Positions 2,537-63,010 of a stretch of DNA of 64,000 nucleotides are shown piece after piece; within the stretch, counting starts at the first letter, position 1; every line of letters begins with the position of its first letter. Position numbers and translations under genes: made by a program. The stretch covers positions 62,001 to 126,000 of the forward strand of contig JAUIDN010000006.1 of the NCBI GenBank assembly GCA_030428615.1, read 5' to 3'. This stretch comes from Alphaproteobacteria bacterium. Its GTDB lineage: Bacteria; Pseudomonadota; Alphaproteobacteria; Sphingomonadales; Emcibacteraceae. The notes under the pieces are model-generated. The model saw only the letters and a program-made list of their open reading frames with translations, searched no databases and had not been told where the DNA came from.

Positions 2537-3658
2537 TTAGCCTAATATTTCCTTGTATAAATTATAGACGTTAATTCCGGTAATCTTTTCTGCGTCATCC
2601 TCGCTTAACCCGCGCTCGAGAAGTTTATCCCAGATAACTTCCATACGCCGCGGGGAATTAAGTTCCTCGAAATAAAGCGGTACCCGCCTGATGTCGAACC
2701 GTGGGCCTTGCTCGCGCTGCATTTCCGCCAGATATTCATCCGTTACGACCAAACGGCGATGATCCCTATCCGATCCGATGCAGACATGATCAATCCCAGC
2801 CACATTAACTGCATGCATGACATGATCAAAATAAAGCTCTACCATTCCATAACGTTCAAGCGTCATAAAGGTCCTTATTTGCGTAATCCCGGCAACACCG
2901 CCCTTATCAGCAAGTTTCCGGAATACGTCATCCGGCATGCTGCGCGAGTCTTCTCTAAGCGCATCACATGCCGTATGAGAGATATGAATTGGCCTATCTG
3001 ATATTTCGATGGCATCCAGGGTTGTTTGCTCATTTGCATGGCTAAGATCAATAATCATGCCGATGTCATTGAGCTTTTCAATCAGTTTCGCACCAAAATC
3101 CGTTACGCCCGAGCCATGCTTTTCCATACAACCCGATCCGGCGTAATTTTGGTAATTGTAGGTAAGTTGACATGACCTTTGCCCAACCCCATAAAACACA
3201 TCAACATTATCAAGATCACGCATAAAATGATCCGAATTCTGCGTCAGATAAAAAATAGCCATCTTTCCTTCTGCACGCGCACGGTCAATGTCTGCTGAGG
3301 TCGTACCTTTAAGATAAAATTTTGATTTTTCATCAATATGACGGTCAAACCACAACATTTCTTCGAGCGCAGATTGAAACCCTCCTTCCACCGAAAGATT
3401 ATCCTGACGCGGATTCCCACAGGTCACTGTAATAGAACGCATTCCGGCCGCGAGCATTTCCTCAATCAATTCGTCTGTATAAGTGTCACGAATTTCACCC
3501 ATCGCATCAATGACCAAAGCGTTACGCTTCGGATCCCACGGCTTCCCAACAAGAGCCGGGGTAAAATTTGGGTCATTGCTTTGTGATAGCGCTATATTCG
3601 GCAGCGCAGCCATAAGCGGAAGCGCCGATGCGCCAATCATAAATTCACGTCTGTTCAT
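2537..3658 (-). CDS. Tat-exported M19 (membrane dipeptidase)-like protein A, altered metal site
   Basis: 373 residues. The N-terminus NRREFM followed by a hydrophobic stretch and Ala-Leu-Ser is a twin-arginine signal. The rest follows the M19 renal-dipeptidase fold order: first strand motif (51-55), Q140 region, LTY (about 167), DLSH (H207), ISHT (H228) and GSD (295-297). M19 enzymes cleave dipeptides with two zinc ions. Here the first HxD ligand pair reads Met53-x-Glu55, the bridging Glu reads Gln140 and the substrate-side His of LTH is Tyr, while H207, H228 and D297 remain. The activity may therefore be changed or lost. It lies 3 nt after paralogue B, so the two are translationally coupled, and both are divergent from the amine oxidase array. 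Confidence 0.8.
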   Translation of the reverse strand: MNRREFMIGASALPLMAALPNIALSQSNDPNFTPALVGKPWDPKRNALVIDAMGEIRDTYTDELIEEMLAAGMRSITVTCGNPRQDNLSVEGGFQSALEEMLWFDRHIDEKSKFYLKGTTSADIDRARAEGKMAIFYLTQNSDHFMRDLDNVDVFYGVGQRSCQLTYNYQNYAGSGCMEKHGSGVTDFGAKLIEKLNDIGMIIDLSHANEQTTLDAIEISDRPIHISHTACDALREDSRSMPDDVFRKLADKGGVAGITQIRTFMTLERYGMVELYFDHVMHAVNVAGIDHVCIGSDRDHRRLVVTDEYLAEMQREQGPRFDIRRVPLYFEELNSPRRMEVIWDKLLERGLSEDDAEKITGINVYNLYKEILG

Positions 3659-3661
3659 TAT

Positions 3662-4735
3662 TTACCCTATTATTTTTTCATAAAGATTATAGACATTCTG
3701 ACCCATCACTTTTTCAAGTTGCCCTTCGGAAAGTCCGCGGTTTTTAAGATTATCCCAAATCACTTCCATTCGACGCGGTCCGTTTAGATCCTCAAAATAA
3801 AGCGGGTATTCTTCCGCATTAATATGGCCTTCCTCCGCAATAAGTTCAGCGATATATTCTTCCGTCATCGTAAGTCTGCGGTGATCACGGTCAGAACCGA
3901 TACAAACATGATCAATACCACACACATCAATTGCATGCATGATGTGATCATAATAAAATTGCGAATTCTGGTCCTTGGTCATAAACCCACGCATTTGTGT
4001 GATTCCGACAAGTCCGTCTTTTTCTGCAAGGCGGCGCAATATCCTGTCCGGCATATTACGTGGATGATTAAATAAATCCTTGCAGCATGTATGGGAAATA
4101 ATAATTGGTTCTTTGGACGCATTAATCGTATCAAGCGTTGTCGCCTCATTTGAATGACTAGTGTCAACGAGCATACCTATATCATTCATTTTTTCCACCA
4201 GCTCATGGCCAAATGTTGTAAGGCCGGAACCATTTATTTCCATACAGCCGGCTCCCGCCCAGTTTTGATAATTATATGTTATCTGGCTTGAACGCAGACC
4301 CATGTCATAAAAAACATCAACGTTATCAAGATTACGCATAAAATGTGTTGAATTCTGTGTCAGGTAAAATACTGCTATTTTGCCCTGCTCACGCGCCTTT
4401 GCGATATCTTTAACCGTTGTGGTGCGCATATAATATTGCGGCTTACTATCCAGAAAACGGTTATAATATAAAAGTCCCTCCATCGTGTCATTATAGGCCT
4501 TTTGCCCCTGCACTTTCGGATCTACAAGCGTCACACAAATAGAACGAATACCACTCGCAAGCATTTCTTCGACAAGACTATCTTCATATACATCACGAAG
4601 TTCACCCATGGCATCAAATATAAGCGTTTTACCATTCCAAGGCGTGCCTGTAGCTTCTGCAAACGAAATATTCGGCAAACCTGCCAAAAGCGGCATTGCC
4701 GCGGCCCCTGCCAGAAATTGTCTCCTGTCAATCAT
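3662..4735 (-). CDS. Tat-exported M19 (membrane dipeptidase)-like protein B, altered metal site
   Basis: 357 residues from the ATG at 4735, chosen because GGGAG sits just upstream and the Tat motif DRRQFL then falls at the very N-terminus; an ATG 45 bases higher lacks this. It is a paralogue of the next gene over the whole length and shares the same substitutions: DAMGE in place of the metal-binding D-G-H-N-D type motif, Gln in place of the bridging Glu (LTQN), and LTH changed to ITY. The two later histidines (TSH and ISHT) and GSD are retained. The conservation of identical changes in two copies argues for a distinct subfamily rather than decay. First gene of the two-gene unit; its 5' region is shared with amine oxidase 1. 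Confidence 0.8.
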   Translation of the reverse strand: MIDRRQFLAGAAAMPLLAGLPNISFAEATGTPWNGKTLIFDAMGELRDVYEDSLVEEMLASGIRSICVTLVDPKVQGQKAYNDTMEGLLYYNRFLDSKPQYYMRTTTVKDIAKAREQGKIAVFYLTQNSTHFMRNLDNVDVFYDMGLRSSQITYNYQNWAGAGCMEINGSGLTTFGHELVEKMNDIGMLVDTSHSNEATTLDTINASKEPIIISHTCCKDLFNHPRNMPDRILRRLAEKDGLVGITQMRGFMTKDQNSQFYYDHIMHAIDVCGIDHVCIGSDRDHRRLTMTEEYIAELIAEEGHINAEEYPLYFEDLNGPRRMEVIWDNLKNRGLSEGQLEKVMGQNVYNLYEKIIG

Positions 4736-4921
4736 TGCGATCTCCCATTTTGTTATTGGTATTATTTTAATCGACAACATATCAGACGACCATCAAAGAT
4801 AACAAGCAGAATTCAATTATAATTTGACTCATACTGATCATTTAATGCTATTATTTCATCATACTAAAAATAAAATAACAGTGCGGGACTTCAGACAAAA
4901 TATTGACATGGAGCAAGACAA

Positions 4922-6508
4922 ATGACCGACCCAAACAAAAATAACCTTACAAAACGCGATTTTTTACAAACCCTTGGTATGATTGGTGGTTCAGCAGCTG
5001 TAATGACCGCACTTTCAGGATTTGAACATAGCCTCGCATCCGATATGACCGCACCACCAGATCTGGCCACTTCAGGAAATGGTAAGAAAATCATTATTCT
5101 GGGTTCTGGCATGTCGGGCATGGTTTCAGCGCTTGAACTTGGAAAAAAAGGATATGACATTGAGGTTCTTGAGGCACGGGACTTCGCAGGTGGTCGTAAT
5201 TCCTGCTCCCGCAAGGGGACCAAAGTAACCCACGCTGACGGAACAACGCATGTATGTGATTTTGATCATGACCAATATTTAAACCATGGTGCTTGGCGTA
5301 TCCCGGGACAACATCATTCAACACTTCATTATGCGCGGTCACTTGGTGTTCCGCTCGAAGTAATGCTTAATCACAGCACGCAAAGCTATTTATACAGTGA
5401 GGACATTGAAGGTCCGCTAAACGGAAAGCGTGTAAGACGAATTCACGCTGAAACAGACCGGCTTGGGAATGTCGCAGAACTCCTTGCCAAATGCGCCAGT
5501 GGCGGTGCCCTTGATGATATGATGGCCAGGGAAGATGTGGAAAAGCTTCTCGAATATCTGCGTAGTATGGGACTTATCAATAACGAAACATTTGAATATC
5601 AGGCAAACAGCGTTCGCGGTTACGCTTCCTATCCGGGCGCAGGCGAAAACTACGGAACATTGTCAGAACCATACCCATTCAGCGATCTTTTGAATCTAAA
5701 TATGGAAACACGGGAACTTACGGCTGATCACCCGACCACGATGTTCCAGGCCGTCGGCGGGATGGATCAAATTGCCTTCGCAATTCGTGATGCAATCCCC
5801 GCGGGCACAATCAAGCTGAACAAAGAAGTTACAAAAATATCGCAATCTGAAAACGGTGTGGTCATTAGTTATAAAGACACCAAGACGGGTGAACAGACAA
5901 CAACGACAGGTGACTACTGTATTTCGACAATTCCTTTTGCCGTTGTCACGGAAATTGAAAACGATTTTTCACCAGCAATGATTGACGCCATGAAAACCCC
6001 TGCTCCAAGTCACGTGGCAAAATTCGGTCTTCAGATGACCCGGCGTTTCTGGGAACAGGATGATATGATCTATGGCGGCAATTCATCAACCAGCATGGCT
6101 GGCTCTATCGCATATCCGTCATCCGACCTGCACGGAACACAAGGTGGCGTGCTTCTGGCTTCCTATTTATTTGGTGGTAGGGCCGATGATTTCAGCAAAT
6201 TGAACATGGATCAAAAAATTGAAAATGCACTTTCCATCGGTGAAAAAGTACACCCGGGTAATTATCGGAAGCATTTCAATGGCAAGGCCGCTGGTATCGT
6301 CTGGCATGATGAAAAATATAATAAATCCGGTTGGTCAAGTTGGCGTGGTGACAGCATAAAAAAACTACCAACCATTTTGAAGGGTGAACGTCGCGTTCTA
6401 TTTAGCGGCGACTGTATTTGTCCGCGTCTTTCCGGGTGGCTAGCAGGAGCCATTGAAGGAGCTTGGCTAACCATGCAGGAAGTTGACAAGCGAGTCGGCA
6501 TGGGTTGA
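4922..6508 (+). CDS. Exported FAD-dependent amine oxidase 1 of 5
   Basis: 528 residues. The N-terminus has a Tat-like signal with Lys-Arg in place of the Arg pair (TKRDFL at 10-15) and a hydrophobic segment to about residue 40. The Rossmann FAD site follows (GSGMSG at 61-66, acidic E84, GGR at 90-92), then a substrate domain and the flavin-contacting region FQAVGGMD. The C-terminal block ends in GW-GAIEGAW. The usual AGE-H-T motif near the end reads SGD here. This is the flavin monoamine oxidase / L-amino-acid oxidase family, which makes imine, H2O2 and ammonia; the substrate cannot be read from sequence. GGAG lies about 10 nt before the ATG, and a strong terminator at 6532-6563 separates it from copy 2. 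Confidence 0.85.
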   Translation: MTDPNKNNLTKRDFLQTLGMIGGSAAVMTALSGFEHSLASDMTAPPDLATSGNGKKIIILGSGMSGMVSALELGKKGYDIEVLEARDFAGGRNSCSRKGTKVTHADGTTHVCDFDHDQYLNHGAWRIPGQHHSTLHYARSLGVPLEVMLNHSTQSYLYSEDIEGPLNGKRVRRIHAETDRLGNVAELLAKCASGGALDDMMAREDVEKLLEYLRSMGLINNETFEYQANSVRGYASYPGAGENYGTLSEPYPFSDLLNLNMETRELTADHPTTMFQAVGGMDQIAFAIRDAIPAGTIKLNKEVTKISQSENGVVISYKDTKTGEQTTTTGDYCISTIPFAVVTEIENDFSPAMIDAMKTPAPSHVAKFGLQMTRRFWEQDDMIYGGNSSTSMAGSIAYPSSDLHGTQGGVLLASYLFGGRADDFSKLNMDQKIENALSIGEKVHPGNYRKHFNGKAAGIVWHDEKYNKSGWSSWRGDSIKKLPTILKGERRVLFSGDCICPRLSGWLAGAIEGAWLTMQEVDKRVGMG

Positions 6509-6531
6509 CCCATTAACCACAAAAAAATGAT

Positions 6532-6563
6532 AAAAGGCCCCGTTTTAAGCGGGGCCTTTTTTT
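6532..6563 (+). terminator. Strong intrinsic terminator after amine oxidase 1
   Basis: AAAAGGCCCCG (6532-6542) and CGGGGCCTTTT (6550-6560) form an 11-bp perfect stem with a 7-nt loop, followed by a run of seven T (6557-6563). It should end transcription from copy 1, which implies that copy 2 and the following copies have their own promoter in 6564-6661. Confidence 0.93.
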
Positions 6564-6661
6564 ATGATTATAGCATATTGTTATATTATATCGTATATGT
6601 TATGAAATCCTTATTAACTATATGGGAAAAAATTACGAGAAAATATACGGGACAATGTATA

Positions 6662-8266
6662 ATGACTGATCAATTGAATGATTTCGCGGGCATAAGCAAA
6701 CGGGACTTTTTACAAAAATTGGGCATGATTGGCGGCTCCGCCGCTCTATATACCGCAATGCAGGGGCTGGAAATAGTGCATGCATCGGCGATGAGTGCAC
6801 CTCCTGCCCTTTCAACCGATGGAACCGGAAAAAAAGTGATCATTCTTGGGGCAGGACTTTCGGGGCTCGTCACTTCCCTTGAACTTACAAAAAAAGGGTA
6901 TGACTGCGAAATAATAGAGGCACGTGCTTTTGCTGGTGGTCGCTGTCAATCCGCAAGAAAAGGCAAAGTCATTCAGGAGCTTGGCGGTGAACGTCAGGTA
7001 TGTAATTTCGAACACGGGCAGTATCTTAATATTGGCCCGTGGCGTATTCCTGCTGAACATAAGGCGGTTATCCACTATTGTCGCGAATTGGATGTGGCGC
7101 TTGAGCCAATGATCAATAAATCGGTACATGCGTACTATTATAGTGAAAACATTGACAGCTCACTTAAGGGAAAGCGCCTGCGCCAGGTGGAAATTGATGT
7201 TGATCGTGCCGGAAATGTGAGTGAACTTCTTGCAAAAGCCGCAAATAACGGTGCATTGGACGATACGTTTAATGCCGAAGACAAAGAAAGACTGCTCGAA
7301 TATCTGACATCCACCGGTCTTCTTGATCGGGAAGAACTGACCTACCGCGCCAATCGTGCACGCGGCTACGAAAGTTATCCCGGCACCGCACTTGATGCAG
7401 GCAACCTTTCCATTCCATATGATTTTGCAGAAGTTCTAAAATTAAAACTGGGAACTCGCTGGGCGACAGCAGACCACCCGGCCGTTATGTTCCAGGCTGT
7501 CGGTGGCATGGATCAAATTCCAATGGCAATGAAAAACGCGATAAAGCCCGGCACTATATCATATAACTCAGAAGTCATAAAAATTCAGCAATCCGATGAC
7601 AATGTGACGATTACCGTGATGAATACAGAATCCGGTGACATCAACACGGTAACAGCCGATTATATAATCTCCACAATTCCTTTTTCCGTCCTGAGTAGCA
7701 TTGAAAATGATTTCAGCGCCGAAATAAAAGATGCGTTGAAATCTGCCACGAGCTCACCTGCATACAAAATTGGCCTTCAGATGACCCGTCGTTTCTGGGA
7801 AGAAGATGATATGATTTACGGTGGCGCGTCCTATTCCGATATTGAAGATCACTATCAGACAAGCTACCCATCATCCAATCTATTTGGAAAGCATGGTGAT
7901 GTAATGCTCGCCAATTATAAATTCGGTGGCGGCAGCGTAGAGCTCTCAAATCATACAATTGCGGAACGCATCCAACATGCGCTTATGTGCGGCGAAAAAC
8001 TGCACCCTGGAAATTTCCGAAAACATTATAACGGCAATGCAATTTCCATGTCATGGCATAAGGATAAATATTCATTGGGTGGTGCATCCAGTTTCCGCAG
8101 CAATCGTCTTCGGCGCAAGCATATCCCAACGATTATCAAGGGGGAAAAACGCGTTATCTTCTCCGGTGGTGGTGTATCACCGTACCATAGCGCATGGATG
8201 ACGGGTGCAATCGAGGGCGCCTGGAACATGATGAAAGAATTCGACAAACGTGTCGCGCAAACATAA
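6662..8266 (+). CDS. Exported FAD-dependent amine oxidase 2 of 5
   Basis: 534 residues from the ATG at 6662. A start further upstream at 6527 would begin before the terminator hairpin and place about 45 odd residues ahead of the signal, so it is rejected. The same order as the other copies is visible: Tat-like SKRDFL signal with Lys-Arg, cleavage region near HASA, Rossmann GAGLSG, GGRC, FQAVGGMD, the long insert with RRFWEEDDMIYGG, and the C-terminal SGGG ... W-GAIEGAW block. No strong ribosome site is visible (GGGAC 10-13 nt upstream). Its leader around the ATG closely resembles that of copy 3, pointing to recent duplication. Predicted reaction: oxidation of an amine or amino acid outside the cytoplasm with H2O2 release. 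Confidence 0.85.
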   Translation: MTDQLNDFAGISKRDFLQKLGMIGGSAALYTAMQGLEIVHASAMSAPPALSTDGTGKKVIILGAGLSGLVTSLELTKKGYDCEIIEARAFAGGRCQSARKGKVIQELGGERQVCNFEHGQYLNIGPWRIPAEHKAVIHYCRELDVALEPMINKSVHAYYYSENIDSSLKGKRLRQVEIDVDRAGNVSELLAKAANNGALDDTFNAEDKERLLEYLTSTGLLDREELTYRANRARGYESYPGTALDAGNLSIPYDFAEVLKLKLGTRWATADHPAVMFQAVGGMDQIPMAMKNAIKPGTISYNSEVIKIQQSDDNVTITVMNTESGDINTVTADYIISTIPFSVLSSIENDFSAEIKDALKSATSSPAYKIGLQMTRRFWEEDDMIYGGASYSDIEDHYQTSYPSSNLFGKHGDVMLANYKFGGGSVELSNHTIAERIQHALMCGEKLHPGNFRKHYNGNAISMSWHKDKYSLGGASSFRSNRLRRKHIPTIIKGEKRVIFSGGGVSPYHSAWMTGAIEGAWNMMKEFDKRVAQT

Positions 8267-8360
8267 CGAAGAAATAATGGCGAGTCCGGTAATAACATGT
8301 CCGGTTTTCTGCATTATCCGAACACATTTTTTTAAAATATATTGATACTGGACAGATATA

Positions 8361-9953
8361 ATGACTGATAAATTTGATGATTTAAGTAAACGTGATTTCC
8401 TGCAAGCTATTGGTATTCTTGGGGGGTCCGCCGCAATGTTAAGTGCCATGGGTGCTTTTGACAAATCCATTGCTTCTGACATGACAGAACCGCCCGAAAT
8501 GCACACTGACGGAACGGGAAAAAAAATAGTGATCCTTGGTGCAGGACTCGCAGGCATGGTTCTCGGACTGGAATTAAGCAAAAAAGGATATGAAGTTGAA
8601 ATTCTGGAAGCTCGTTCATTCGCCGGCGGCCGCTGTCAGACTTCACGCAAAGGCACCGTTATTCATGAAATTGGTGGCGAGCGTCAGGTCTGCGATTTTG
8701 ATAATAACCAGTATGTAAACCACGGTCCCTGGCGCATTGCACAGGAACATCATTCTGTATTGCATTATTGTCACTCACTCAATGTTGAACTTCAGCCAAT
8801 GATCAATCAGAGCGCACAGACCTATATATATTCAGAACAGGCGGAAGGCGCTCTTAAGGGAAAAAGGATCCGTCATGTTCATGCAGAAATTGACCGTCAC
8901 GGAAATATCTTTGAACTGCTGGCAAAATGCGCATCTGATGGCTCACTTGACGATAAAATGAATGCCGAAGATCGCGACCGTCTTCTGGAACACCTCAAAG
9001 CAACAGGACTGATTGACCGTAAGGAACTTAATTATGTCGCAGGACGCGCCCGGGGGTTTGAAAGCTATCCCGGAGCGGCGATGAATTTTGGCAAGTTTTC
9101 CGAACCATATGATTTTTCTGAGCTCTTAAAAGTACGCGTCGGCACTCGCTATGATACTGCAGATCATCCGGCCGTCATGTTTCAACCGATCGGCGGCATG
9201 GACATGATTGCAAAGGGATTATTTAATGCGCTTCCAAAAGGAATGGTTAAATTCAATAAGGAAGTCACAAATATTTTACAAACCGATAGTGGCGCTGTCA
9301 TATCTTACTTCGATACGGAGACTGGCGCGGAGACAAGAGCAACAGGTGACTATTGTATCTCCACCATTCCATTCTCGGTTCTGACCACAATCGACAACGA
9401 TTTCGCAGACGACATGATTACGGCGCTTAAAAGCCCGCGCAGCGCACCTGCTTACAAAATAGGGTTGCAGTTTGACCGCCGTTTCTGGGAAAAAGATGAA
9501 ATGATTTATGGTGGTGTCACACAAACGGACATCCCCGGCAACAGGATAATTTCGTATCCTTCCAACGATCTTCACAGTCCACATGGCGGTGTCCTTCTCG
9601 CAGACTATGAATTTGGGGCCCAAGCCGTTCAAAATAGTAATCTTTCAAATGCAGAACGTATCGAACAGGCGTTATCAGCGGGGGAAAAAGTCCACCCGGG
9701 CCACTACCGAAAACATTATAACGGAAAAGCCATGTCCATGGCCTGGCATAAGGAAAAATACTCCCTCGCCGGATGGGTCGGATGGTCGGCCCGCGGTCGT
9801 GTACGTCAACTCCCCACCATCTTAAAAGGTGAACGAAGAGTGCTGTTTTCCGGTAACGGCATCAGCCCAATTCTTGACGGTTGGCAGGCCGGTGCCATTG
9901 AAGGTGCCTGGTATACGATGCAGGATCTGGACAAACGGATCGCGCAGAGCTAA
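8361..9953 (+). CDS. Exported FAD-dependent amine oxidase 3 of 5
   Basis: 530 residues. SKRDFL Tat-like signal, GAGLAG Rossmann motif, GGRC, YVNHGPWRIA, FQPIGGMD, FDRRFWEKDEMIYGG and SGNG near the C-terminus align with the other four copies along the full length. In copies 2-5, but not copy 1, the stretch before the GxWRIx motif contains GGERQVC or GERQVC. The gap from copy 2 is 94 nt with only a weak inverted repeat (CCGG arms), so read-through from copy 2 is possible. GGACAG lies about 8 nt before the ATG. Family-level function is secure; the substrate is unknown. Confidence 0.85.
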   Translation: MTDKFDDLSKRDFLQAIGILGGSAAMLSAMGAFDKSIASDMTEPPEMHTDGTGKKIVILGAGLAGMVLGLELSKKGYEVEILEARSFAGGRCQTSRKGTVIHEIGGERQVCDFDNNQYVNHGPWRIAQEHHSVLHYCHSLNVELQPMINQSAQTYIYSEQAEGALKGKRIRHVHAEIDRHGNIFELLAKCASDGSLDDKMNAEDRDRLLEHLKATGLIDRKELNYVAGRARGFESYPGAAMNFGKFSEPYDFSELLKVRVGTRYDTADHPAVMFQPIGGMDMIAKGLFNALPKGMVKFNKEVTNILQTDSGAVISYFDTETGAETRATGDYCISTIPFSVLTTIDNDFADDMITALKSPRSAPAYKIGLQFDRRFWEKDEMIYGGVTQTDIPGNRIISYPSNDLHSPHGGVLLADYEFGAQAVQNSNLSNAERIEQALSAGEKVHPGHYRKHYNGKAMSMAWHKEKYSLAGWVGWSARGRVRQLPTILKGERRVLFSGNGISPILDGWQAGAIEGAWYTMQDLDKRIAQS

Positions 9954-10016
9954 CACGACACTTGCAATGTTATAACAATCCCTTAATATGATTTTAAACG
10001 ATTAGGGGATTACATT

Positions 10017-11612
10017 ATGACACAAGAGAACAACAATACTGATTTTACCAAACGCGATTTTCTAACCCGCATCGGCATGGTTGCCGGCACCTCTGCCATG
10101 ATGACGGCGCTTGCTGGATGGGACATGTCAATGGCATCAACTATGACTGCTCCACCTGCAATGTCGTCCGATGGCAAGGGTAAAAAAATTCTGATCCTTG
10201 GCGCGGGCCTGTCCGGCCTTGTCTGCGCACTCGAACTTTCAACAAAAGGCTATGACATACAGGTTTTGGAAGCCAAGGAAACGGCGGGCGGCAGATGCAT
10301 GTCTGCACGCAAGGGTACCGTGATCGAAGACGTCGGTGGCGAACGCCAAGTTTGCGACTTTGAAAATAATCAGTACCTGAACGTTGGCCCGTGGCGCATC
10401 CCGCCGCAACATCATTCAACCTTATATTATTGCCGTACACTTGGCGTGGCGTTGGAACCATTTATCAATAAATCGTTTGATGCCTATTATTATCAAAGTA
10501 ATGGTGATGGGCCACTGTGCGGCAAGCCAATTCGTCAGTTTGAAATTGATATGGACCGTACCGGACATGTGGACGAACTGCTGGCAAAATGTATTACCGG
10601 CGGCGCGCTGGAGGATAAACTGACCAAAGAAGATCAAGAAGCATTACTTGATTACTTAAAATCAACCGGTTTGATCGACCGCACTGAGCTTGATTACCAC
10701 GCAAACAGGGTTCGCGGATGGGAAAAAATGCCAACCGTTGGCACTGATAAAGGTAAGCTGTCCGACCCATATGGATTAGCCGATTTATTGAAAATGAAAT
10801 TGGGCAGAAGAAATCCGGATTCAGAGCACACACCCGCTTTATTTCAACCTGTCGGTGGAATGGACCAGATACCACGTGCGCTGGAACGGGCACTGCCAAA
10901 CGGGATCATCCGCTTCAATTCGGAAATTACAGATATTATTCAATCCGACGATGGCGTTTCTGTTACAGTTACAGAAACAAAAACCAACAAAACGGAAATT
11001 TTGCAAGCTGACTACGCGATTTCGTGCCTTCCATTTCCGTTGCTCAATAAGATCAATACCGATTTCAGACAAGATGTTATCGACGGGCTTAAAGCGCCCT
11101 CCTCCGCACCGATTGTCAAGCTGGGGCATCAATTTTCCGAACGGTTCTGGGAAACACAGGAAAATATTTTTGGCGGCATAACCGTGAATGATATTGATGA
11201 AAGTGGTAATATAAGCTACCCGTCATCGGAATTATTTAATGGAAAAACCGGTGTTGTTCTTACAGCTTATGCTCATCGGGGTGGCGCCATTAAACTCGGG
11301 AACCGGAGTATCGCAGAGCGTATTGAACGTGGCCTTGAGATTGGTGAAATGGTCCATCCCGGACGTTTTAGGAAATATTTCAACGGCAAAGCCATTTCCA
11401 TGGCCTGGCATAAACAAAAATATAATCTTGCAGCATGGGTGGCGTGGTCACGGCGCAATATCGACAGCAAAATGCCGGCTTTGGTAAAGGGCGAAAAACG
11501 CGTGCTATTCAGTGGCAATGGTATGGCACCATACCATCAGGGCTGGATGTTCGCTGCTATTGAGGCCGCATGGAATTCCATTGGGGATCTGGATAAACGA
11601 ATTAACATGTAA
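10017..11612 (+). CDS. Exported FAD-dependent amine oxidase 4 of 5
   Basis: 531 residues with AGGGGA 9-10 nt before the ATG, the clearest ribosome site of the array after copy 1. TKRDFL Tat-like signal, GAGLSG Rossmann motif, GGRC, VGPWRIP, FQPVGGMD and SGNG are present. It is the most diverged copy in the middle and C-terminal parts: FQ-PVGG is kept, but the helix after RRFW reads ERFWETQENIFGG and the segment normally STIPF reads SCLPFP, so its substrate pocket may differ. 63 nt separate it from copy 3 with no terminator seen, consistent with a polycistronic message for copies 2-5. Confidence 0.85.
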   Translation: MTQENNNTDFTKRDFLTRIGMVAGTSAMMTALAGWDMSMASTMTAPPAMSSDGKGKKILILGAGLSGLVCALELSTKGYDIQVLEAKETAGGRCMSARKGTVIEDVGGERQVCDFENNQYLNVGPWRIPPQHHSTLYYCRTLGVALEPFINKSFDAYYYQSNGDGPLCGKPIRQFEIDMDRTGHVDELLAKCITGGALEDKLTKEDQEALLDYLKSTGLIDRTELDYHANRVRGWEKMPTVGTDKGKLSDPYGLADLLKMKLGRRNPDSEHTPALFQPVGGMDQIPRALERALPNGIIRFNSEITDIIQSDDGVSVTVTETKTNKTEILQADYAISCLPFPLLNKINTDFRQDVIDGLKAPSSAPIVKLGHQFSERFWETQENIFGGITVNDIDESGNISYPSSELFNGKTGVVLTAYAHRGGAIKLGNRSIAERIERGLEIGEMVHPGRFRKYFNGKAISMAWHKQKYNLAAWVAWSRRNIDSKMPALVKGEKRVLFSGNGMAPYHQGWMFAAIEAAWNSIGDLDKRINM

Positions 11613-11691
11613 TGATTTATAATGGCTGGGGTGGTCTTTTAAATTCGACTCAGTTAATGTGCTGTACAGATGTATAAAACCGGGGCACAAA

Positions 11692-13302
11692 ATGATTATA
11701 AAAGATAATTCGATAACTGAAATTCAGATCAGTAAACGTCAACTTCTAAAATCTATCGGTATGGTTGGCGGATCAACCGCTGTCTTTGCCGCCATGCAGG
11801 GTTGGGATATCGCGGGCGCAACCGAACCGAAAAAAGCGCCGCCGGAAATTGCATCAGACGGCCATGGAAAAAAAATAATCATTCTTGGAGCTGGTCTCTC
11901 CGGTATGGTTGCTGCTTTAGAATTATCAAAAAAGGGTTATGAATGCCAAATCCTGGAAGCCGATGATAAAATTGGGGGGCGCTGTCAATCTGCACGTAAA
12001 GGAAGTGTCATTCACGAAATTGAAGGGGAACGACAGGTTTGCGATTACGATGCAGGACAATATTTCAATTATGGTCCATGGCGAATTCCCGCACAGCACC
12101 ACCCAACATTACATTATTGCCATACTCTTGGTGTGGCACTCGAGCCGTTAATCAACAAATCGCCAATGGCTTATTATCTTGGGAATAATATTGAAGGGCC
12201 GCTAAAGGGAAAAAGGCTTCGCCAGGGCGATGTTGATTTTGACCGCCAGGGTCACATTGCTGAACTTCTCGCCAAGTGCGCGGATCAAGGCAGACTTGAT
12301 GACATGGTCTCGGTCGAAGACCGCGAGCTTCTTCTGGAATATCTTAGAAATCAGGGACTTATCGACCGACGTGAACTCGACTATAAGCCAAATCGTGCGC
12401 GCGGCTGGAAATATTATCCCGGTGCCGGTGAAGATTTTGGCGAATATGCCGATATTTACAAGCTCACCGACCTATTTAAAATGAAAGTGGGTACCCACCT
12501 AGAAAATGAAGATCATCCGATCGTTATGTTCCAATCGGTTGGCGGCATGGATAGAATTGCCCACGCCCTTTATAATGCACTGCCGAAAGGGATTGTTCAA
12601 TTAAACAAGGAAGTCACAAACATCCGCCAAACAGATGACGGCGTATCAATTAAGTATAAAGATACCAAATCCGGCAATGAAATGACCGCAACGGGCGATT
12701 ATTGCATTTCGACCATTCAGTTTCCCGTTGTTTCAAAAATTGAGAATAATTTCAACACAGACCTTCAAAATGCATTGAAGGCACCAGCTGGCTCCCCTGC
12801 TTTTAAGCAGGGATTGCAGTTCAATCGGCGATTCTGGGAGCAGGACGATATGATTTACGGCGGAAACTCAATGACCGACATTCCCGGGCATTCGGTCACC
12901 GCTTATCCGTCGTCCGATCTTCATAGTAACGGCCCGGGGGTAGTTCTTGGTTCCTACATCTGGGGTGGTGAAGCGGCTCGACTTAGCAATTTAAGTGTCA
13001 AGGATCGGGTGGAATTCGCCCTCAGCGTCGGCGAAAAGCTCCACCCCGGAAACTTCCGTCATCACTTTAACGGAAAAGCTATGACAATCGGCTGGCATAG
13101 AATGCAATATCATCTGGGCGGATGGGTTACATGGACACGCCGCAAACGTCAACGGCAACTTCCTGTCATTCTAAAGGGTGAAAACAGGGTTCTTTTCTCT
13201 GGAAACGGTATCGCAACCATCCAAAATGGTTGGATGGTCGGTGCTATTGAAGCTGCATGGCTTACGATCAGTGAACTTGATAAACGCGTCAGTCAGAGTT
13301 AA
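11692..13302 (+). CDS. Exported FAD-dependent amine oxidase 5 of 5
   Basis: 536 residues from the ATG at 11692 (GGGG about 7 nt upstream); an upstream in-frame start at 11659 adds 11 residues without a ribosome site. The signal is SKRQLLKSIG, again Lys-Arg, with Leu in place of Phe. Rossmann GAGLSG, GGRC, YGPWRIP, FQSVGGMD, NRRFWEQDDMIYGG and SGNG are conserved. The stop codon TAA is followed directly by the ATG of the small membrane protein at 13303, so that gene is probably translated with this one. Last oxidase of the array. Confidence 0.85.
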   Translation: MIIKDNSITEIQISKRQLLKSIGMVGGSTAVFAAMQGWDIAGATEPKKAPPEIASDGHGKKIIILGAGLSGMVAALELSKKGYECQILEADDKIGGRCQSARKGSVIHEIEGERQVCDYDAGQYFNYGPWRIPAQHHPTLHYCHTLGVALEPLINKSPMAYYLGNNIEGPLKGKRLRQGDVDFDRQGHIAELLAKCADQGRLDDMVSVEDRELLLEYLRNQGLIDRRELDYKPNRARGWKYYPGAGEDFGEYADIYKLTDLFKMKVGTHLENEDHPIVMFQSVGGMDRIAHALYNALPKGIVQLNKEVTNIRQTDDGVSIKYKDTKSGNEMTATGDYCISTIQFPVVSKIENNFNTDLQNALKAPAGSPAFKQGLQFNRRFWEQDDMIYGGNSMTDIPGHSVTAYPSSDLHSNGPGVVLGSYIWGGEAARLSNLSVKDRVEFALSVGEKLHPGNFRHHFNGKAMTIGWHRMQYHLGGWVTWTRRKRQRQLPVILKGENRVLFSGNGIATIQNGWMVGAIEAAWLTISELDKRVSQS

Positions 13303-14965: not shown

Positions 14966-16129
14966 ATGAAACATTATAATAATAATCCAACCTATCAGAA
15001 CACAGATCACATACTTAATCCCAGATTATTCGATAATGCTTATGAAAGCATTAGTGGCTGGCCTGATTATACGCCGTCGTCGCTACAATCGCTCCCCTGC
15101 CTTGCCGCGGAATTTGGCATTGGGCAAATTTATTACAAGGATGAAAGCGAGCGGTTTGGCCTTAAAAGCTTCAAATCGCTTGGCGGTGCCTACGCGGTAA
15201 TTCAAGTACTCACTGAACATCTGCGTGTTATATTGAGCGACAATAGCATCACAGGAGTGGACATCAAGTCCGGAAAATATCGCGACCTTTTAAAGGGATT
15301 TACGGTGGCAACCGCCACGGATGGCAATCATGGGCGCTCTGTCGCCTGGGGAGCGCAACAGTGCGGCATAAAGTGCAAAATCTATATGCACAAGGGCGTA
15401 AGCCAAAGCCGTGCTATCGCTGTTGAGCTTCTCGGGGCGGAAGTTATATGGGTTGACGGTAATTATGACGACAGCCTTAGCAAGGTGAAACGCGACTCCA
15501 TCGAAAATGAGTGGCACATTATTTCAGATACCTCCTATGAAGGTTATACCTATATCCCTAAATTTGTAATGGCTGGCTATACGGTCATGACAAAAGAAAT
15601 TATGGGTCAGTTAAAAGATGACCAGATACCTACCCATATCATAATACAAGGAGGTGTCGGGGGACTTGCCGGCGCCATCTGCGCGCACGCGGCAATGATT
15701 TGGGGCGAAAGACGGCCAAAATTTATTGTGGTTGAGCCGGAAACCGCTGACTGCCTTTATCAAAGTGCGAAACTGGGGGAACCTAAATTGGTTCATATTG
15801 AAAAAGAAACCTTGATGGGGGGGCTCTCCTGCGGTGAAGTATCCATAATCGGGTGGGGAATATTAAAGAATAATGCCGATCATTTTATCACCATTTCAGA
15901 TGATAACGTAAAATCAGCGATGCGCGTCATGGCATTGGGCGTTGGCACAGACCCATCAATTGAAGCGGGTGAAAGTGCTGTAGCAGGGGTCGCTATGCTC
16001 ATGGAATTAAGAGACCATCCGGAAATTAAATCCGAGCTAGGGCTTGACGAAAATTCCCGCGTACTTCTTTTCGGAACCGAGGGAGCAACAGACCCGCAAC
16101 TCTATGACGAAATTGTTTCCGGGGGCTAA
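14966..16129 (+). CDS. dpaL: Diaminopropionate ammonia-lyase (PLP enzyme)
   Basis: 387 residues. It belongs to the fold-type II PLP family. The Schiff-base Lys is K70 in GLKSFKSLGG, preceded by YYKDES; the phosphate-binding loop and substrate motif TDGNHGR, the glycine loop QGGVGGLAG and the C-terminal FGTEGATD are all present and match DpaL rather than threonine deaminase. The reaction splits 2,3-diaminopropionate to pyruvate and two ammonia, with D-serine as a possible side substrate. It likely shares a transcript with the DUF924 gene and overlaps the convergent TPR gene by 4 nt at the 3' ends. It fits an amino-acid nitrogen scavenging role. Confidence 0.9.
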   Translation: MKHYNNNPTYQNTDHILNPRLFDNAYESISGWPDYTPSSLQSLPCLAAEFGIGQIYYKDESERFGLKSFKSLGGAYAVIQVLTEHLRVILSDNSITGVDIKSGKYRDLLKGFTVATATDGNHGRSVAWGAQQCGIKCKIYMHKGVSQSRAIAVELLGAEVIWVDGNYDDSLSKVKRDSIENEWHIISDTSYEGYTYIPKFVMAGYTVMTKEIMGQLKDDQIPTHIIIQGGVGGLAGAICAHAAMIWGERRPKFIVVEPETADCLYQSAKLGEPKLVHIEKETLMGGLSCGEVSIIGWGILKNNADHFITISDDNVKSAMRVMALGVGTDPSIEAGESAVAGVAMLMELRDHPEIKSELGLDENSRVLLFGTEGATDPQLYDEIVSGG

Positions 16130-17055
16130 TTCCCACCAATCATTATAAGCTCTGCTTCGGATGGCCAGAATCCTCGCGGGCCGCTGTCGGTGGTTTCGTT
16201 CCAAAGTTTAATGGCAGCGTCATTATTACCTTCAAAATGGTCTTTCATGGCAACAGTGTATTTTCCGATCACATCCGCATTTTCCAGAAATTCTTTACGG
16301 CTATAAAGCCCCTTAAGGTAATTGACCGCGCGATGATACTGGTCATTTTCAATCAGATCGGCCTCATCAGGTACTTTCTTAAGTTCATCTTGCGCTTCAC
16401 CGTGTCGTCCAAGCTTACGCAGTGCCATATATTTCCATAGTGTCACAGGTATAAGTTCTTCCATATAAGCAAACCGGACGGGGACGTTGATCGCTTCGTT
16501 CATTCCTTCCAAAACCATTTTATAATCCCCCGTTGCCATGCTGGTTTGCCCCAGATAATATGGGATATTCTGTTTAAATGTTGATATGGTTAAGTCAAGC
16601 GCATTGGCAATACCGTTTGGCTCATAGCTATCCGGTTGATCCTTCAGAAGCTCTCCCGCTTTTTTATAATCGGCAATTGCCTGATCCCATTGATAATTCC
16701 GCGCCAGATGGCGACCACGATAACGGTATAATTTATAACTGTCGGGAAATTTTTTAAGACCTTCTGAGAAAACCTGTATCGCTTCCGGTAACCGACCAAG
16801 GTACCCATAGCGGCGCCCCAACCAAGCATAACTATCCTCGCGTTCCGGCGCAACGTCCATCAGTGCCTTGGCTATCTCGAGATCCTTTTCCAAGCGTGTC
16901 TGGGTATCAGGGCTAAACTTTGTTTCCCTGAAGGCACGTCCCGTTGGTGTGTGTGTCATCGCGAAAGCAGCTTTAACCACACCGTCATGGTTTTCCGCCT
17001 GTGTTTTCAGGGTAAAGGATAAAGTTAAAATGAACAAAACAGCAAAAAAGCGCAT
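16126..17055 (-). CDS. Exported TPR-repeat protein (paralogue 1)
   Basis: 309 residues from the ATG at 17055, which has AGGGGAG 5 nt upstream and begins a clear Sec signal peptide (hydrophobic core, cleavage near TQA-EN). The body holds several tetratricopeptide-like helix pairs (for example EREDSYAWLGRRYGYLG, then AIQVFSEGLKKFPDS, then the YRGRHLARNYQWDQA pair). It is a full-length paralogue of the gene upstream (17085-18041), 29 nt apart, so a duplicated periplasmic protein pair in one unit. Role unknown. Confidence 0.75.
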   Translation of the reverse strand: MRFFAVLFILTLSFTLKTQAENHDGVVKAAFAMTHTPTGRAFRETKFSPDTQTRLEKDLEIAKALMDVAPEREDSYAWLGRRYGYLGRLPEAIQVFSEGLKKFPDSYKLYRYRGRHLARNYQWDQAIADYKKAGELLKDQPDSYEPNGIANALDLTISTFKQNIPYYLGQTSMATGDYKMVLEGMNEAINVPVRFAYMEELIPVTLWKYMALRKLGRHGEAQDELKKVPDEADLIENDQYHRAVNYLKGLYSRKEFLENADVIGKYTVAMKDHFEGNNDAAIKLWNETTDSGPRGFWPSEAELIMIGGN

Positions 17056-17084
17056 TTGTGCTCCCCTTAAGGTAAAAATTAATC

Positions 17085-18041
17085 TCATTTAAGATTTAGC
17101 AGTTCTACTTCCGCCAGCCAATATCCCTTGTGATTATCATTGGTGACGGTGGTAAATACCTTTTTTGCGGCGTCGTCATTACCGTTAAAATAATCAACCA
17201 TCCCTATTGTATATAACCCAATGCTGTCGGCGCGCCCCATAAACTGGTTACGGGTGTACCGTCCCTGCAGAAACTGCACCGCTTCATAATAATCCTGATT
17301 CGAAATAATGTTTAGTGTACGGGGGATCGCTTTAATCATATCTTCCGCTTCTTTATGCTGTCCCAGCTTTCTCATGGCCATATATTTATAAAGGCTCGTT
17401 GAAACAAGGAAATCATCTTGGTCAGAAAGTTCATTTACCTCTACCGCTTTATCCATATATTCAATGACGGTATCATAATCACCCGTAGCCATGCTGCTCT
17501 GTGCAAGATAATAATATATGTTCCGCTTAAAGGTACTTGGGCTAAAGTTTGACCGGCCGGGTATACCTTTCTGGCTTGGGGTTACATCAAGACTTTCAAC
17601 AAGCGCTTCTGCACGGCGCAAATCTATAATCCCTTCTTCAAATTGATAATTTCTGATCAGATGAAATCCACGATAACGATAAAGAGCATAACTTTCCGGG
17701 AATAATTCAAGGCCTTCTGTAAATATCTCAATTGCTTTGGCATAATTGCCCAAAAACCCTTCTCGACGCCCGCGCCAGCTATATGAGCTTTCTTTAAGTG
17801 GAGCTGATGCAAAAACCGAATTTGCCGTCGCCAGATCCCCGTCGAACCATTTTTTGCTGAACTGGTTAAATTCTTTGTCACGAAAGACAACCCCAGAAGG
17901 TGTTGATGTCACGGCGTAAGCCGCCAATACAACCGGATTATCTGAAACTTTGGTTTCCGAAGTTGTATTTACCTGCGCATACCCCCCTGCTGTGCTTCCA
18001 AATATCAGTCCAATTACCACAGGCAAAATCAAAGCACGCAT
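17085..18041 (-). CDS. Exported TPR-repeat protein (paralogue 2)
   Basis: 318 residues from the ATG at 18041 (AAGGAAA upstream), giving a Sec signal peptide that ends near GYAQ. The frame is open much further upstream but that part overlaps the divergent gene and has no ribosome site. The TPR-like repeats align with those of the downstream paralogue: SYSWRGRREGFLG, YAKAIEIFTEGLELFPES, YRGFHLIRNYQ, SSMATGDYDTV, KYMAMRKLGQH. First gene of the pair; 133 nt separates it from the divergent ArsC/phosphatase-like gene. Confidence 0.75.
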   Translation of the reverse strand: MRALILPVVIGLIFGSTAGGYAQVNTTSETKVSDNPVVLAAYAVTSTPSGVVFRDKEFNQFSKKWFDGDLATANSVFASAPLKESSYSWRGRREGFLGNYAKAIEIFTEGLELFPESYALYRYRGFHLIRNYQFEEGIIDLRRAEALVESLDVTPSQKGIPGRSNFSPSTFKRNIYYYLAQSSMATGDYDTVIEYMDKAVEVNELSDQDDFLVSTSLYKYMAMRKLGQHKEAEDMIKAIPRTLNIISNQDYYEAVQFLQGRYTRNQFMGRADSIGLYTIGMVDYFNGNDDAAKKVFTTVTNDNHKGYWLAEVELLNLK

Positions 18042-18174
18042 AAAATTTCCTTTTATATTATTTTCTGTTGCATCATAGTGGTGCATATTGTCGCGATGAT
18101 AAAGTGTAAGTGACAAAAATAGTATTAAAAAATCCGAAATTTTCATGTCGAAATAATAAAGGATCTCCATAATA

Positions 18175-18633
18175 GTGAAAATATTATATCTTAGCACTAA
18201 TAACATTTGCCGAAGCATAATAGCCGAATCAATTACCAGAAAATATGCGGTCGACAATGTTAAGGGCATGAGTGGCGGCACACACCCAGGGGATGATATT
18301 CACCCGGTCGCTCACCGGATACTCAAAAATCATCATTTCAGTTCAGTAAATCTGGTCGGAAAGTCGTGGGATCTTTTTTCCAGCTGGGAACCTGACATTG
18401 TCATTACGCTATGTGATAAAGTCTTAAAAGAAAAATGTCCCACATATGTCGGAAAATCAGTTCATGTCCACTGGGGATTGCCCGACCCGACAAAACAATT
18501 CGGCAATATGGAAGAAAATTTTACCAAAATATTGACTATACTGGATGAACGTATAACAAAGATGCTTGAAGTCGATCTTGAATCGCTGAGCAAAGAAGAA
18601 CTTCGAGCACATCTTAAAAAGGTTGCCCAATGA
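18175..18633 (+). CDS. ArsC / low-molecular-weight tyrosine phosphatase-like protein with Ser in place of the nucleophilic Cys
   Basis: 152 residues, GTG start with AAAGGA about 10 nt upstream. The N-terminal P-loop that normally reads C-T-x-N-x-C-R-S reads STNNICRS here, so the nucleophilic Cys is Ser while the rest of the loop is intact. The ArsC-type region further on (ITLC, KCP about 8 residues later, and the VHWGLPDP acid-loop region) is conserved, including two cysteines in the place of the redox shuttle pair. Thioredoxin-coupled ArsC proteins reduce arsenate using three cysteines, and phosphatase relatives need the first one. Catalysis by the known route is therefore unlikely. It overlaps the next gene by 4 nt. 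Confidence 0.75.
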   Translation: MKILYLSTNNICRSIIAESITRKYAVDNVKGMSGGTHPGDDIHPVAHRILKNHHFSSVNLVGKSWDLFSSWEPDIVITLCDKVLKEKCPTYVGKSVHVHWGLPDPTKQFGNMEENFTKILTILDERITKMLEVDLESLSKEELRAHLKKVAQ

Positions 18634-29623: not shown

Positions 29624-30655
29624 CTAACCATTTCTGAAGGTATACCCATACCCGTTAATTGCTGGCACGCCACCAAGATGGGCGTATAAAATTTTTGACC
29701 CTTTCTTAAAATACCCCTTTTTCACCAGATCCATCATTCCCTGCATTGATTTTCCTTCATAAACCGGGTCAGTCATCATCCCTTCAAGCCGTGCACAAGT
29801 TCTGATCGCCTCTTTTGTTTCTTCTGATGGCACACCATAATAAGGATAAGCATAATCTTCATGCAGAACAATATCCTCTTCTGTAATGTCCTGCTCAAGC
29901 TCAACGAGCTTTGCCGTGTTTAGCGCAATTTCAAGTACCTGTTCTTTTGTTTGCTGCGGTGTCCCGCTCGCGTCAATGCCAATCACGTTTCGTGCCCGCC
30001 CGTCGGCCGCAAACCCAACAAGCATCCCCGCATGCGTTGACCCCGTCACCGTACAAACAACAATATAATCAAACTTGACGCCCATTTCCTCTTCCTGGGC
30101 GCGCACCTCTTCTGCAAAGCCGACAAATCCAAGGCCACCATATTTATGCACGGATGCCCCAGCCGGGATTGGGTATGGTTTACCCCCTTTATCTTCCACA
30201 TCCTTTATTGCGTTCTCCCAGCTTTCACGAATGCCTATATCAAATCCTTCATCGACCAGTTCCACGTCGGCCCCCATCACCCGGGATAGAAGAATATTAC
30301 CCACACGATCATATACAGCGTCTTCATGTGGTACCCAGCTTTCCTGCACTAGTCGGCATTTAAACCCAATTTTTGCCGCCGTCGCCGCAACAAGGCGTGT
30401 ATGATTTGATTGAACCCCACCGATGGAAACAAGCGTATCCGCACCTGATGCAATGGCATCCGGTACAATATATTCAAGTTTGCGTAATTTATTGCCCCCA
30501 AATGCGAGGCCGGAATTGCAATCTTCACGCTTTGCGTAAATTTCAACATCACCGCCGAGGTGATCACTTAGAGCATTTAATTTCTCAATCGGTGTTGGTC
30601 CAAATGTTAACGGATATTTTTCAAATTTATCAAGTCTGGTAAGGTTTTTTGCCAT
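29624..30655 (-). CDS. acdS: 1-aminocyclopropane-1-carboxylate deaminase
   Basis: 343 residues. A PLP enzyme with Schiff-base Lys K56 in GGNKLRK. The two residues that separate true ACC deaminases from the closely related D-cysteine desulfhydrases are both of the deaminase type: Glu300 (DPVYEGKS) and Leu327 (AHLGG), offset by 5 from the usual E295 and L322. The reaction opens ACC to 2-oxobutyrate and ammonia. In plant- or alga-associated bacteria this lowers host ethylene and supplies nitrogen; in a marine cell a nitrogen role is likely. The Lrp-type regulator is divergent, the usual acdR-acdS arrangement. Confidence 0.92.
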
Positions 30656-62229: not shown

Positions 62230-62464
62230 GCCCTCCATTTTAAAAATTAAAGCTAAATTCGGCAGTGTTCTTAATGCTGTAAAATTGCTGTGATATTTTT
62301 ATTCGTTCAACCCAATAATCACAAAATTCGATTTTTTCCTTTAATTCCCACCGTAACAATGATTAGATAGTTTCAACAATAATCGTGATAAAAAGTCCTA
62401 AACACAGATCATTAAATCGCCGATGACAACCATCGAGCCAACATTAAAAAAAGAGGAAGAAATA
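62230..62464. other. Leader region of the RidA gene pair
   Basis: About 235 bases between small RNA candidate B and the RidA start. AT-rich up to about 62400; the frame of the RidA gene is open back to 62423 but without a better start. A promoter for the RidA - RidA - DksA unit is expected here; none is clear. Confidence 0.35.
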
Positions 62465-63010
62465 ATGAAAAGAAGAAGTTTTTTTGCAGCCGCCGGTTTA
62501 AGCGCACTTGCCGTCAATATGATATCAAGCAAAGCAACCGCACAAATGGGCGGAAAAATTGATGCCAAACTGGCAGAACTTGGTGTTGAAGTGGCGGCCG
62601 CCGATGCGCCGGTTGCCGCTTATGTCGGATGGCGTAAAGTTGGTAATATGGTCTACATCGCCGGACAGGTTCCCCGCGACGAAAATGGCCCGATTGTCGG
62701 TAAACTTGGCGCCAACATGACTACAGAACAAGGGTATGCCGCCGCCCGCGCTTGTGGTGTTTCAATATTAAGTCAACTAAAGGCTGCCTGTGACGGTAAT
62801 CTAGACCGGGTCGTGAAATGCGTACAAATTCAGGGGCTTGTAAATTCAACGGATGACTTCACGGAACAGCATCTGGTCGTAAACGGTACATCGGAACTTT
62901 TCAGGGACATCTGGGGTGAACCGGGGCTTGCCGCTCGTGCAGCCGTCGGTACCAATAGTCTGCCACTGGGGATCGCCTGCGAGGTTCTCGCTGTATTTGA
63001 GGTAGCATAA
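62465..63010 (+). CDS. Tat-exported RidA-family protein
   Basis: 181 residues from the ATG at 62465 (GAGGAAG upstream), so that KRRSFFAAAGL forms a twin-arginine signal with cleavage after TATA. The RidA-like domain (about 45-180) has KVGNMVYIAGQVPRDENG, the Leu-rich GVSILSQLKAACDGNLDRVVKCVQIQGLV and a C-terminal AARAAVGTNSLPLGIACEVLAVFE. The Arg in ARAAVG is in the position of the catalytic Arg that hydrolyses 2-imino acids in RidA. Export from the cytoplasm is unusual for this family. The next gene starts on the last base of its stop. Confidence 0.85.
   Translation: MKRRSFFAAAGLSALAVNMISSKATAQMGGKIDAKLAELGVEVAAADAPVAAYVGWRKVGNMVYIAGQVPRDENGPIVGKLGANMTTEQGYAAARACGVSILSQLKAACDGNLDRVVKCVQIQGLVNSTDDFTEQHLVVNGTSELFRDIWGEPGLAARAAVGTNSLPLGIACEVLAVFEVA

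Follow-up and report, generated by a model that had tools for sequence, protein, structure and literature searches.

Two adjacent genes in the window (the whole stretch of DNA that was analysed, 64,000 nucleotides) encode proteins that, judged by sequence, are members of the M19 fold family and are not two-zinc M19 dipeptidases, because the three residue features that define the latter (the HxD ligands, the bridging Glu and the substrate His of the LTH motif) are all replaced. Both belong to a branch of M19 that we name after its DAMGE motif. We give a probability of about one half to our preferred reading, in which these proteins would be periplasmic hydrolases that hold at most one metal and free an amino acid from a conjugate.

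The gene pair and its surroundings

The pair lies divergent from an array of L-amino-acid-oxidase-like genes, and the window's two TPR genes (16126–18281) lie beyond this array:

2537–3658, minus strand: M19-fold protein with an altered site, copy 1 (P0001, 373 aa), with an RR Tat-like motif at the N terminus
3662–4735, minus strand: M19-fold protein with an altered site, copy 2 (P0002, 357 aa), with an RR Tat-like motif; AF2 pLDDT 90.9
4736–4921, no strand: divergent intergenic region of 186 bp separating the M19 pair from the first oxidase
4922–6508, plus strand: L-amino-acid-oxidase-like flavoprotein 1, with a K-R-type Tat-like start
6527–8266, plus strand: L-amino-acid-oxidase-like flavoprotein 2, likely start near 6659
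8361–9953, plus strand: L-amino-acid-oxidase-like flavoprotein 3; nearest solved structure 2jae, an L-amino acid oxidase (E 8e-79)
10017–11612, plus strand: L-amino-acid-oxidase-like flavoprotein 4
11659–13302, plus strand: L-amino-acid-oxidase-like flavoprotein 5
14966–16129, plus strand: diaminopropionate ammonia-lyase-type PLP enzyme (NF006058, 484.8 bits, cut-off 276)
16126–17088, minus strand: secreted TPR protein 1, 44–50% identical to the TPR proteins of DAMGE clusters outside the window's genus
17085–18281, minus strand: secreted TPR protein 2, likely start near 18041

The open reading frames of P0001 and P0002 are separated by three bases, and their products are 57% identical. For P0002, the ATG at 4735 gives the 357-residue protein, and a longer open reading frame extends to 4780. 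Both proteins match Peptidase_M19 in Pfam (PF01244; E 1.3e-67 for P0001 and 1.1e-70 for P0002), which places them in M19 by sequence, and neither P0001 nor P0002 received an enzyme name from NCBIfam. With such a match, automatic annotation is likely to call them dipeptidases though the residues that define this chemistry are gone. The same genome encodes two more M19 proteins, adjacent to each other, with a canonical site. An N-terminal RR motif was found in 47 of 54 DAMGE members, as compared with none of 41 proteins of the 2i5g-like (IDGL) type and 2 of 41 canonical M19 proteins, while the TAT_signal match of P0002 lay below the Pfam cut-off; the DAMGE-branch proteins look like Tat-type exported proteins of the periplasm.

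The five tandem oxidase-like genes (4922–13302) are mutually 47–58% identical, and two further copies lie elsewhere in the genome. By gene lists, the divergent M19/oxidase layout recurs in relatives of the same lineage (L006, L007, L008, L010, L011 and L013). Elsewhere in the window are a 1-aminocyclopropane-1-carboxylate deaminase (29624–30655, minus strand; TIGR01274, 586 bits, cut-off 392), tandem similar amidohydrolase-like proteins with export- or lipoprotein-like starts (34251–37629, minus strand; from the open reading frame list only) and two adjacent YjgF/RidA-type proteins with export-like N termini (62423–63573, plus strand). RidA proteins are usually regarded as cytosolic.

Half of the metal site is replaced and half is kept

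Site positions are given in what we take to be human renal dipeptidase numbering (H20, D22, E125, H152, H198, H219, R230 and D288). The original prediction had both copies replacing HxD by Met-x-Glu, the bridging Glu by Gln and the LTH His by Tyr, and keeping DLSH/DTSH, ISHT and GSD; all of this is found in both. The altered motifs start at residues 51 and 41 (DAMGE, in P0001 and P0002, respectively), 138 and 125 (LTQN) and 165 and 152 ((L/I)TYN), and the kept motifs at 204 and 191 (D(L/T)SH), 226 and 213 (ISHT) and 295 and 280 (GSDRDHRR). When both are aligned by MAFFT with three canonical M19 proteins (two encoded in this same genome), the His and Asp of HxD face Met and Glu, the bridging Glu faces Gln and the substrate His faces Tyr. 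A profile-profile alignment confirmed the columns of the Glu, His152, His198, His219, Arg230 and Asp288. As this alignment is local and begins after the HxD region, the HxD column is assigned from the MAFFT result and from the P0002 AF2 model, in which DAMGE closes the first barrel strand (39–44), the place of HxD in M19. The kept residues in P0002 are His194, His215, Arg226 and Asp282.

Across the branch, Met, Glu and Gln are fixed in 54/54 members and Tyr in 53/53 readable ones. The second-site His pair, the carboxylate-binding Arg and the catalytic Asp are retained, and these two His, Arg and Asp are invariant (HHRD) in every readable row of the 146 M19 proteins compared. An HxD motif relocated elsewhere, which would have undermined the prediction, is not shared among the 54 members: P0002 lacks any His before residue 131, H107-I-D109 of P0001 is a chance match that is not common to the family, and some H-x-D/H occurs between the DAMGE region and QN in 10 of the 54.

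The DAMGE proteins form one branch of M19

A scan with one genome per species yielded 50 loci; it is biased, as its search words were RMEVIWD and LxDAMGE. Its record titles name Alpha- and Gammaproteobacteria, Acidobacteria, Bacteroidetes groups, Gemmatimonadetes, Marinimicrobia and Aminicenantes, and the 54 sampled members span six phylum-level groups and all carry the changes. Profile searches covered 299 genomes of the phylum, 32 of the family and 296 of the order. The original prediction would have failed if most close homologues had the canonical motif and activity. All 27 distinct proteins scoring above 400 bits in these searches have DAMGE, QN and TYN, with a search profile that was itself built from DAMGE proteins. 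In the phylum sample, no protein of the DAMGE type scored below 566 bits and none of the other types above 262 bits.

The 146 non-redundant M19 proteins were tabulated by their site letters: MEQYHHRD in 53 (and one more with a deletion), L-QYHHRD in 40, HDEHHHRD in 33, HDEWHHRD in 8 and other combinations in 11. HxD pairs with Glu, and loss of HxD with Gln, in all readable rows except L121 (HPEY). The MAFFT alignment excluded duplicates and fragments (L002, L003, L004, L049, L050, L053 and L054), and the tree, computed by a quick method, took 145 of the 146 rows, leaving out the fragment L049. All 54 DAMGE rows fall on one side of a branch (SH-aLRT 99), and a second branch (SH-aLRT 97) likewise has all 41 HxD rows on one side; the DAMGE clade is nearest to rows of the NALGG type (SH-aLRT 97), and no HxD member was found inside it among the proteins recovered. 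The proposal of a distinct subfamily is thereby supported. By sequence, the DAMGE proteins belong to a wider set of M19 proteins lacking HxD, of which they are one branch and in which 2i5g is also found. Two proteins grouped with 2i5g by their letters, L156 and L158, form a separate long branch in the tree. The eight HDEWHHRD proteins are of the HxD type with Trp at the substrate-His column, and four of them (L135, L139, L140 and L146) lie within one 8-row tree group (SH-aLRT 100). Among open-licence papers, we found no description of the DAMGE branch or of its gene cluster.

These patterns bear on whether the proteins could be ordinary two-zinc dipeptidases that tolerate Met, Glu and Gln as ligands. 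The canonical fold and half-site speak for this. Against it, the four changes are fixed together, Gln and Tyr also occur in other non-HxD branches, and M19 proteins with an intact site are already present twice in this genome. Zinc is not usually bound by Met, and Gln, unlike a carboxylate, cannot form a bridge between two zinc ions. We consider this explanation very improbable.

Clade-specific residues at the catalytic end of the barrel

The AF2 model of P0002, built with 35 homologues (mean pLDDT 90.9, pTM 0.88), best matches 2i5g among solved structures (Z 43.3, rmsd 1.9, 311 aligned), followed by porcine (Z 40.7) and human (Z 40.0) dipeptidase 1 and other M19 proteins (Z 35–40); among the matches listed, the next family after M19 appears at Z 17. 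Sixteen positions of the mature protein (M43, G44, E45, R47, Y124, Q247, R249, R283, H285, R286, E301, N318, P320, R322, E324 and Y352) are at least 98% fixed in DAMGE members and occur in 0–12% of 85 other M19 proteins; R5 and A42 show the same pattern. Seven of the sixteen (E45, R47, Q247, R249, R283, H285 and R286) directly follow model strands 39–44, 242–245 and 277–279. Residues just after the strands form the catalytic end in barrels of this kind, so seven fixed new positions there suggest that the site was rebuilt rather than decayed. Going by the model, we see these clade-fixed positions as the strongest argument that the site may have a new job. A local pseudogene or drift was ruled out by invariance across phyla together with low dN/dS (0.05–0.08 in the three of ten pairs with a finite, computable dS; the other pairs were saturated).

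Oxidases accompany the pair in one genus

Oxidases of the window's type were found at 11 of 51 DAMGE loci, the window included, all in the window's lineage; as L030 and L196 look like one contig, this becomes 10 of 50, and the locus counts include at least one double. Partial oxidase copies or fragments occur at L012 and L053, also in the window's lineage. The oxidase listed under one canonical M19 row belongs to L011, a locus with both M19 kinds. Among the 32 genomes of the family, oxidases are present in 13/13 of the window's genus and 0/19 others, and the M19 variant in 12/13 and 1/19 (G302), respectively. It had been suggested that the variant works with the oxidases and asked whether homologues always adjoin them. 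The first stands as gene co-occurrence within the window's genus, where 12 of 13 genomes carry both, but not outside it, and the answer to the second is no. Absence from most loci rules out the oxidases as a general partner beyond this genus.

A secreted TPR protein accompanies the variant more widely

The gene for a secreted TPR protein goes with the variant across more genomes than the oxidases do. Of the order's 296 genomes, 28 have it: 19/19 with the variant versus 9/277 without (Fisher 1.7e-23, with relatedness left uncorrected, so that the counts are less independent than they look). In genus g158 (16 genomes), the variant and the TPR gene both occur only in G302. Where variant carriers of the order fall outside the window's genus (seven genomes), the TPR gene comes directly after the M19 gene on the same strand.

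Eleven loci that were hand-picked as cluster carriers (L036, L037, L042, L044, L085, L194 and L203–L207) all have the variant, the TPR gene and a TonB receptor. Ten of these loci add a PuuR-like HTH-cupin regulator together with a piperidine-6-carboxylate (P6C) dehydrogenase, and four of the eleven encode a sodium-dependent transporter. The dehydrogenase scored above the cut-off of NF050084 in six of the seven clusters tested. The full cluster is thus seen at 10 loci (11 counting L194) of several dozen, and none of 40 canonical M19 loci has a TPR, TonB or P6C gene. Gene calls came from a simple codon-usage caller, so genes may be missed and starts misplaced.

Outside the window's lineage, neighbours within two genes include DAO (4), Aldedh (3), PALP (3), class-V aminotransferase (3) and M81 (3). 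This Pfam tally used 119/135 neighbours of DAMGE genes outside the window's lineage and 137/147 of canonical M19 genes, with proteins longer than 700 aa omitted; the contrast between the two sets is suggestive only, as the tally covers the 25 commonest families and misses single-member control families. Downstream of the variant, a gamma-glutamyltranspeptidase was identified in L008 and an M20 peptidase in L007, and by clustering both types occur at both loci. In the marine gammaproteobacterial loci L014, L015 and L051 the variant stands with an M81 (MlrC-type) gene, and L014 also has a D-cysteate sulfo-lyase above cut-off and a D-amino-acid-dehydrogenase-like gene.

The tight link to the TPR gene would fit a protein complex, as expected if the M19 variant were a catalytically dead binding protein or helper that, in the periplasm, either binds a ligand of the amino-acid type or offers a substrate to a partner, be it the oxidases or the TPR protein. 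Its catalytic residues are replaced, its carboxylate-binding Arg is kept, and the M19-fold periplasmic protein PvdM (3b40, Z 37.6) is reported to help PvdP (PMC13119372). As PvdP is an oxidising enzyme, this report keeps the explanation a serious one. However, a mere binder would be expected to lose some metal ligands, while here the second-site His pair and Asp are fixed, as nearly are sixteen new positions, and the oxidases are missing from most loci. On balance we find a dead helper doubtful.

The P6C dehydrogenases, and the two unrelated families of flavin oxidases (for amines or amino acids) encoded near the variant, also raise the prospect that the old barrel performs a new reaction, such as hydrolysing or opening the ring of a cyclic imine, an imino acid or its amide, tied to oxidase-made imines or to piperidine-6-carboxylate. 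The new residues E45, R47, R283, H285, R286 and R322 would suit such a change, and so would a 'pepD' gene, presumably of the 2i5g type, that precedes dgcAB (PMC12093977). Set against this, such imines hydrolyse unaided in water, and the other neighbours are peptidases (M81, GGT and M20), which fit ordinary amide hydrolysis. We judge chemistry of this sort improbable.

A proposed periplasmic hydrolase

In our preferred reading of a periplasmic hydrolase, the DAMGE branch would have dispensed with the arm that binds the alpha metal, HxD having become MxE and the bridging Glu a Gln, and with the substrate His, now Tyr. It would also have acquired charged and polar residues that are fixed in this branch. 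At most a single metal would be held by His194 and His215 (P0002 numbering) near Asp282, and Arg226 would bind the substrate carboxylate. The substrate would be an amino-acid conjugate (a small peptide, amide or lactam), imported by the TonB receptor where one is encoded alongside, and the freed amino acid might be degraded by the P6C dehydrogenase in most full clusters or by the L-amino-acid-oxidase array in the window's genus.

With the alpha arm lost and the beta-site His pair and Asp retained, the sequences point most readily to one metal, since a bridged pair that loses one of its metals would be expected to lose HxD and the bridging Glu together. The original suggestion of another metal, or none, would also be compatible with these residues. 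The retained Arg suggests a substrate with a free carboxylate, and the cluster genes suggest a product that enters lysine or pipecolate breakdown; in the window's genus, the analysis suggests a product that L-amino-acid-oxidase-like enzymes can oxidise. The metal may be absent altogether, because in the one-metal amidohydrolases considered the beta site is completed by a carboxylate or Cys, which Gln replaces poorly. Replacement of the substrate His is also expected of a dead enzyme and counts against a hydrolase, and the mixed neighbours outside full clusters count against one common substrate for all members.

A broader proposal, which we put forward as speculative and rather unlikely as a whole, is that of a new barrel enzyme family. 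It would have lost two-zinc chemistry and formed a new site from E45, R47, Q247, R249, R283, H285, R286 and R322 around the kept His pair and Asp. Its substrate in the periplasm would be of the lysine or pipecolate type, either a conjugate or a cyclic compound. Such a family would be the signature of a catabolic cluster that is still undescribed (TonB receptor, PuuR-like regulator, altered M19 protein, TPR protein, sodium symporter and P6C dehydrogenase), rewired in one genus to exported L-amino-acid oxidases. A branch in which the same half-site is lost and a strict new pattern kept would be a clean case of a two-metal enzyme turning into a one-metal or new enzyme, and the cluster offers a concrete substrate lead in lysine or pipecolate derivatives.

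Comparison with known systems

The closest solved structure, the 'amidohydrolase' 2i5g of Pseudomonas aeruginosa, shares the M19 fold, the loss of HxD, the Gln and Tyr and the other His pair, Arg and Asp, and its type is also found within an amino-acid catabolic gene group. It differs in being 26% identical, in the absence of Met-x-Glu, in other neighbours and in its separate part of the tree; the DAMGE proteins lie outside the 2i5g-type (IDGL) branch and carry the RR motif that none of its 41 sampled members has. In the sampled Pseudomonadota loci, relatives of 2i5g adjoin dgcA-like, dgcB-like and similar genes. From the gene clusters in the sampled loci, the 'pepD' before dgcAB, in glycine-betaine catabolism, is probably of the 2i5g type. 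According to PMC12093977, 'pepD' precedes dgcAB (dimethylglycine demethylase) in Pseudomonas and Vibrio; the gene order given there for Vibrio natriegens and P. aeruginosa matches that of the sampled loci.

The renal-type M19 dipeptidases (DPEP1 1itq, Sco3058 3id7 and GliJ 5lwz) share the fold (Z 39–40) and the equivalents of His198, His219, Arg230 and Asp288, but in DAMGE proteins HxD, the bridging Glu and His152 are replaced and sixteen clade-specific positions are added.

PvdM of pseudomonads (3b40) is alike in its M19 fold (Z 37.6), its periplasmic location and its reported role as helper of an oxidising enzyme. PvdM is reported to assist the binding of ferribactin to the tyrosinase PvdP (PMC13119372), and of the pvdMNO genes the first is reported as the essential one (PMC6206403). 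PvdM differs in that its role is siderophore maturation, and the likeness drawn here is one of fold and reported role; moreover, a PvdM-like helper would be encoded with an oxidase throughout, and the DAMGE genes are so only in the window's lineage. One sampled protein considered as a PvdM, L141, was unsupported as such, its best PDB match being 3id7.

The one-metal amidohydrolases have Glu or Cys as the third second-site ligand according to PMC12017989, which treats beta-site one-metal enzymes as an accepted amidohydrolase class; the DAMGE branch has Gln in 54/54. E. coli NagA, a distant fold match (1ymy, Z 16.7), is described in PMC6016474 as mononuclear, its HXH being replaced by QXN, and shows that one metal can suffice for an amidohydrolase. 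As in NagA, the first-strand metal pair of the DAMGE proteins is replaced and the second site, with its His pair and Asp, is kept.
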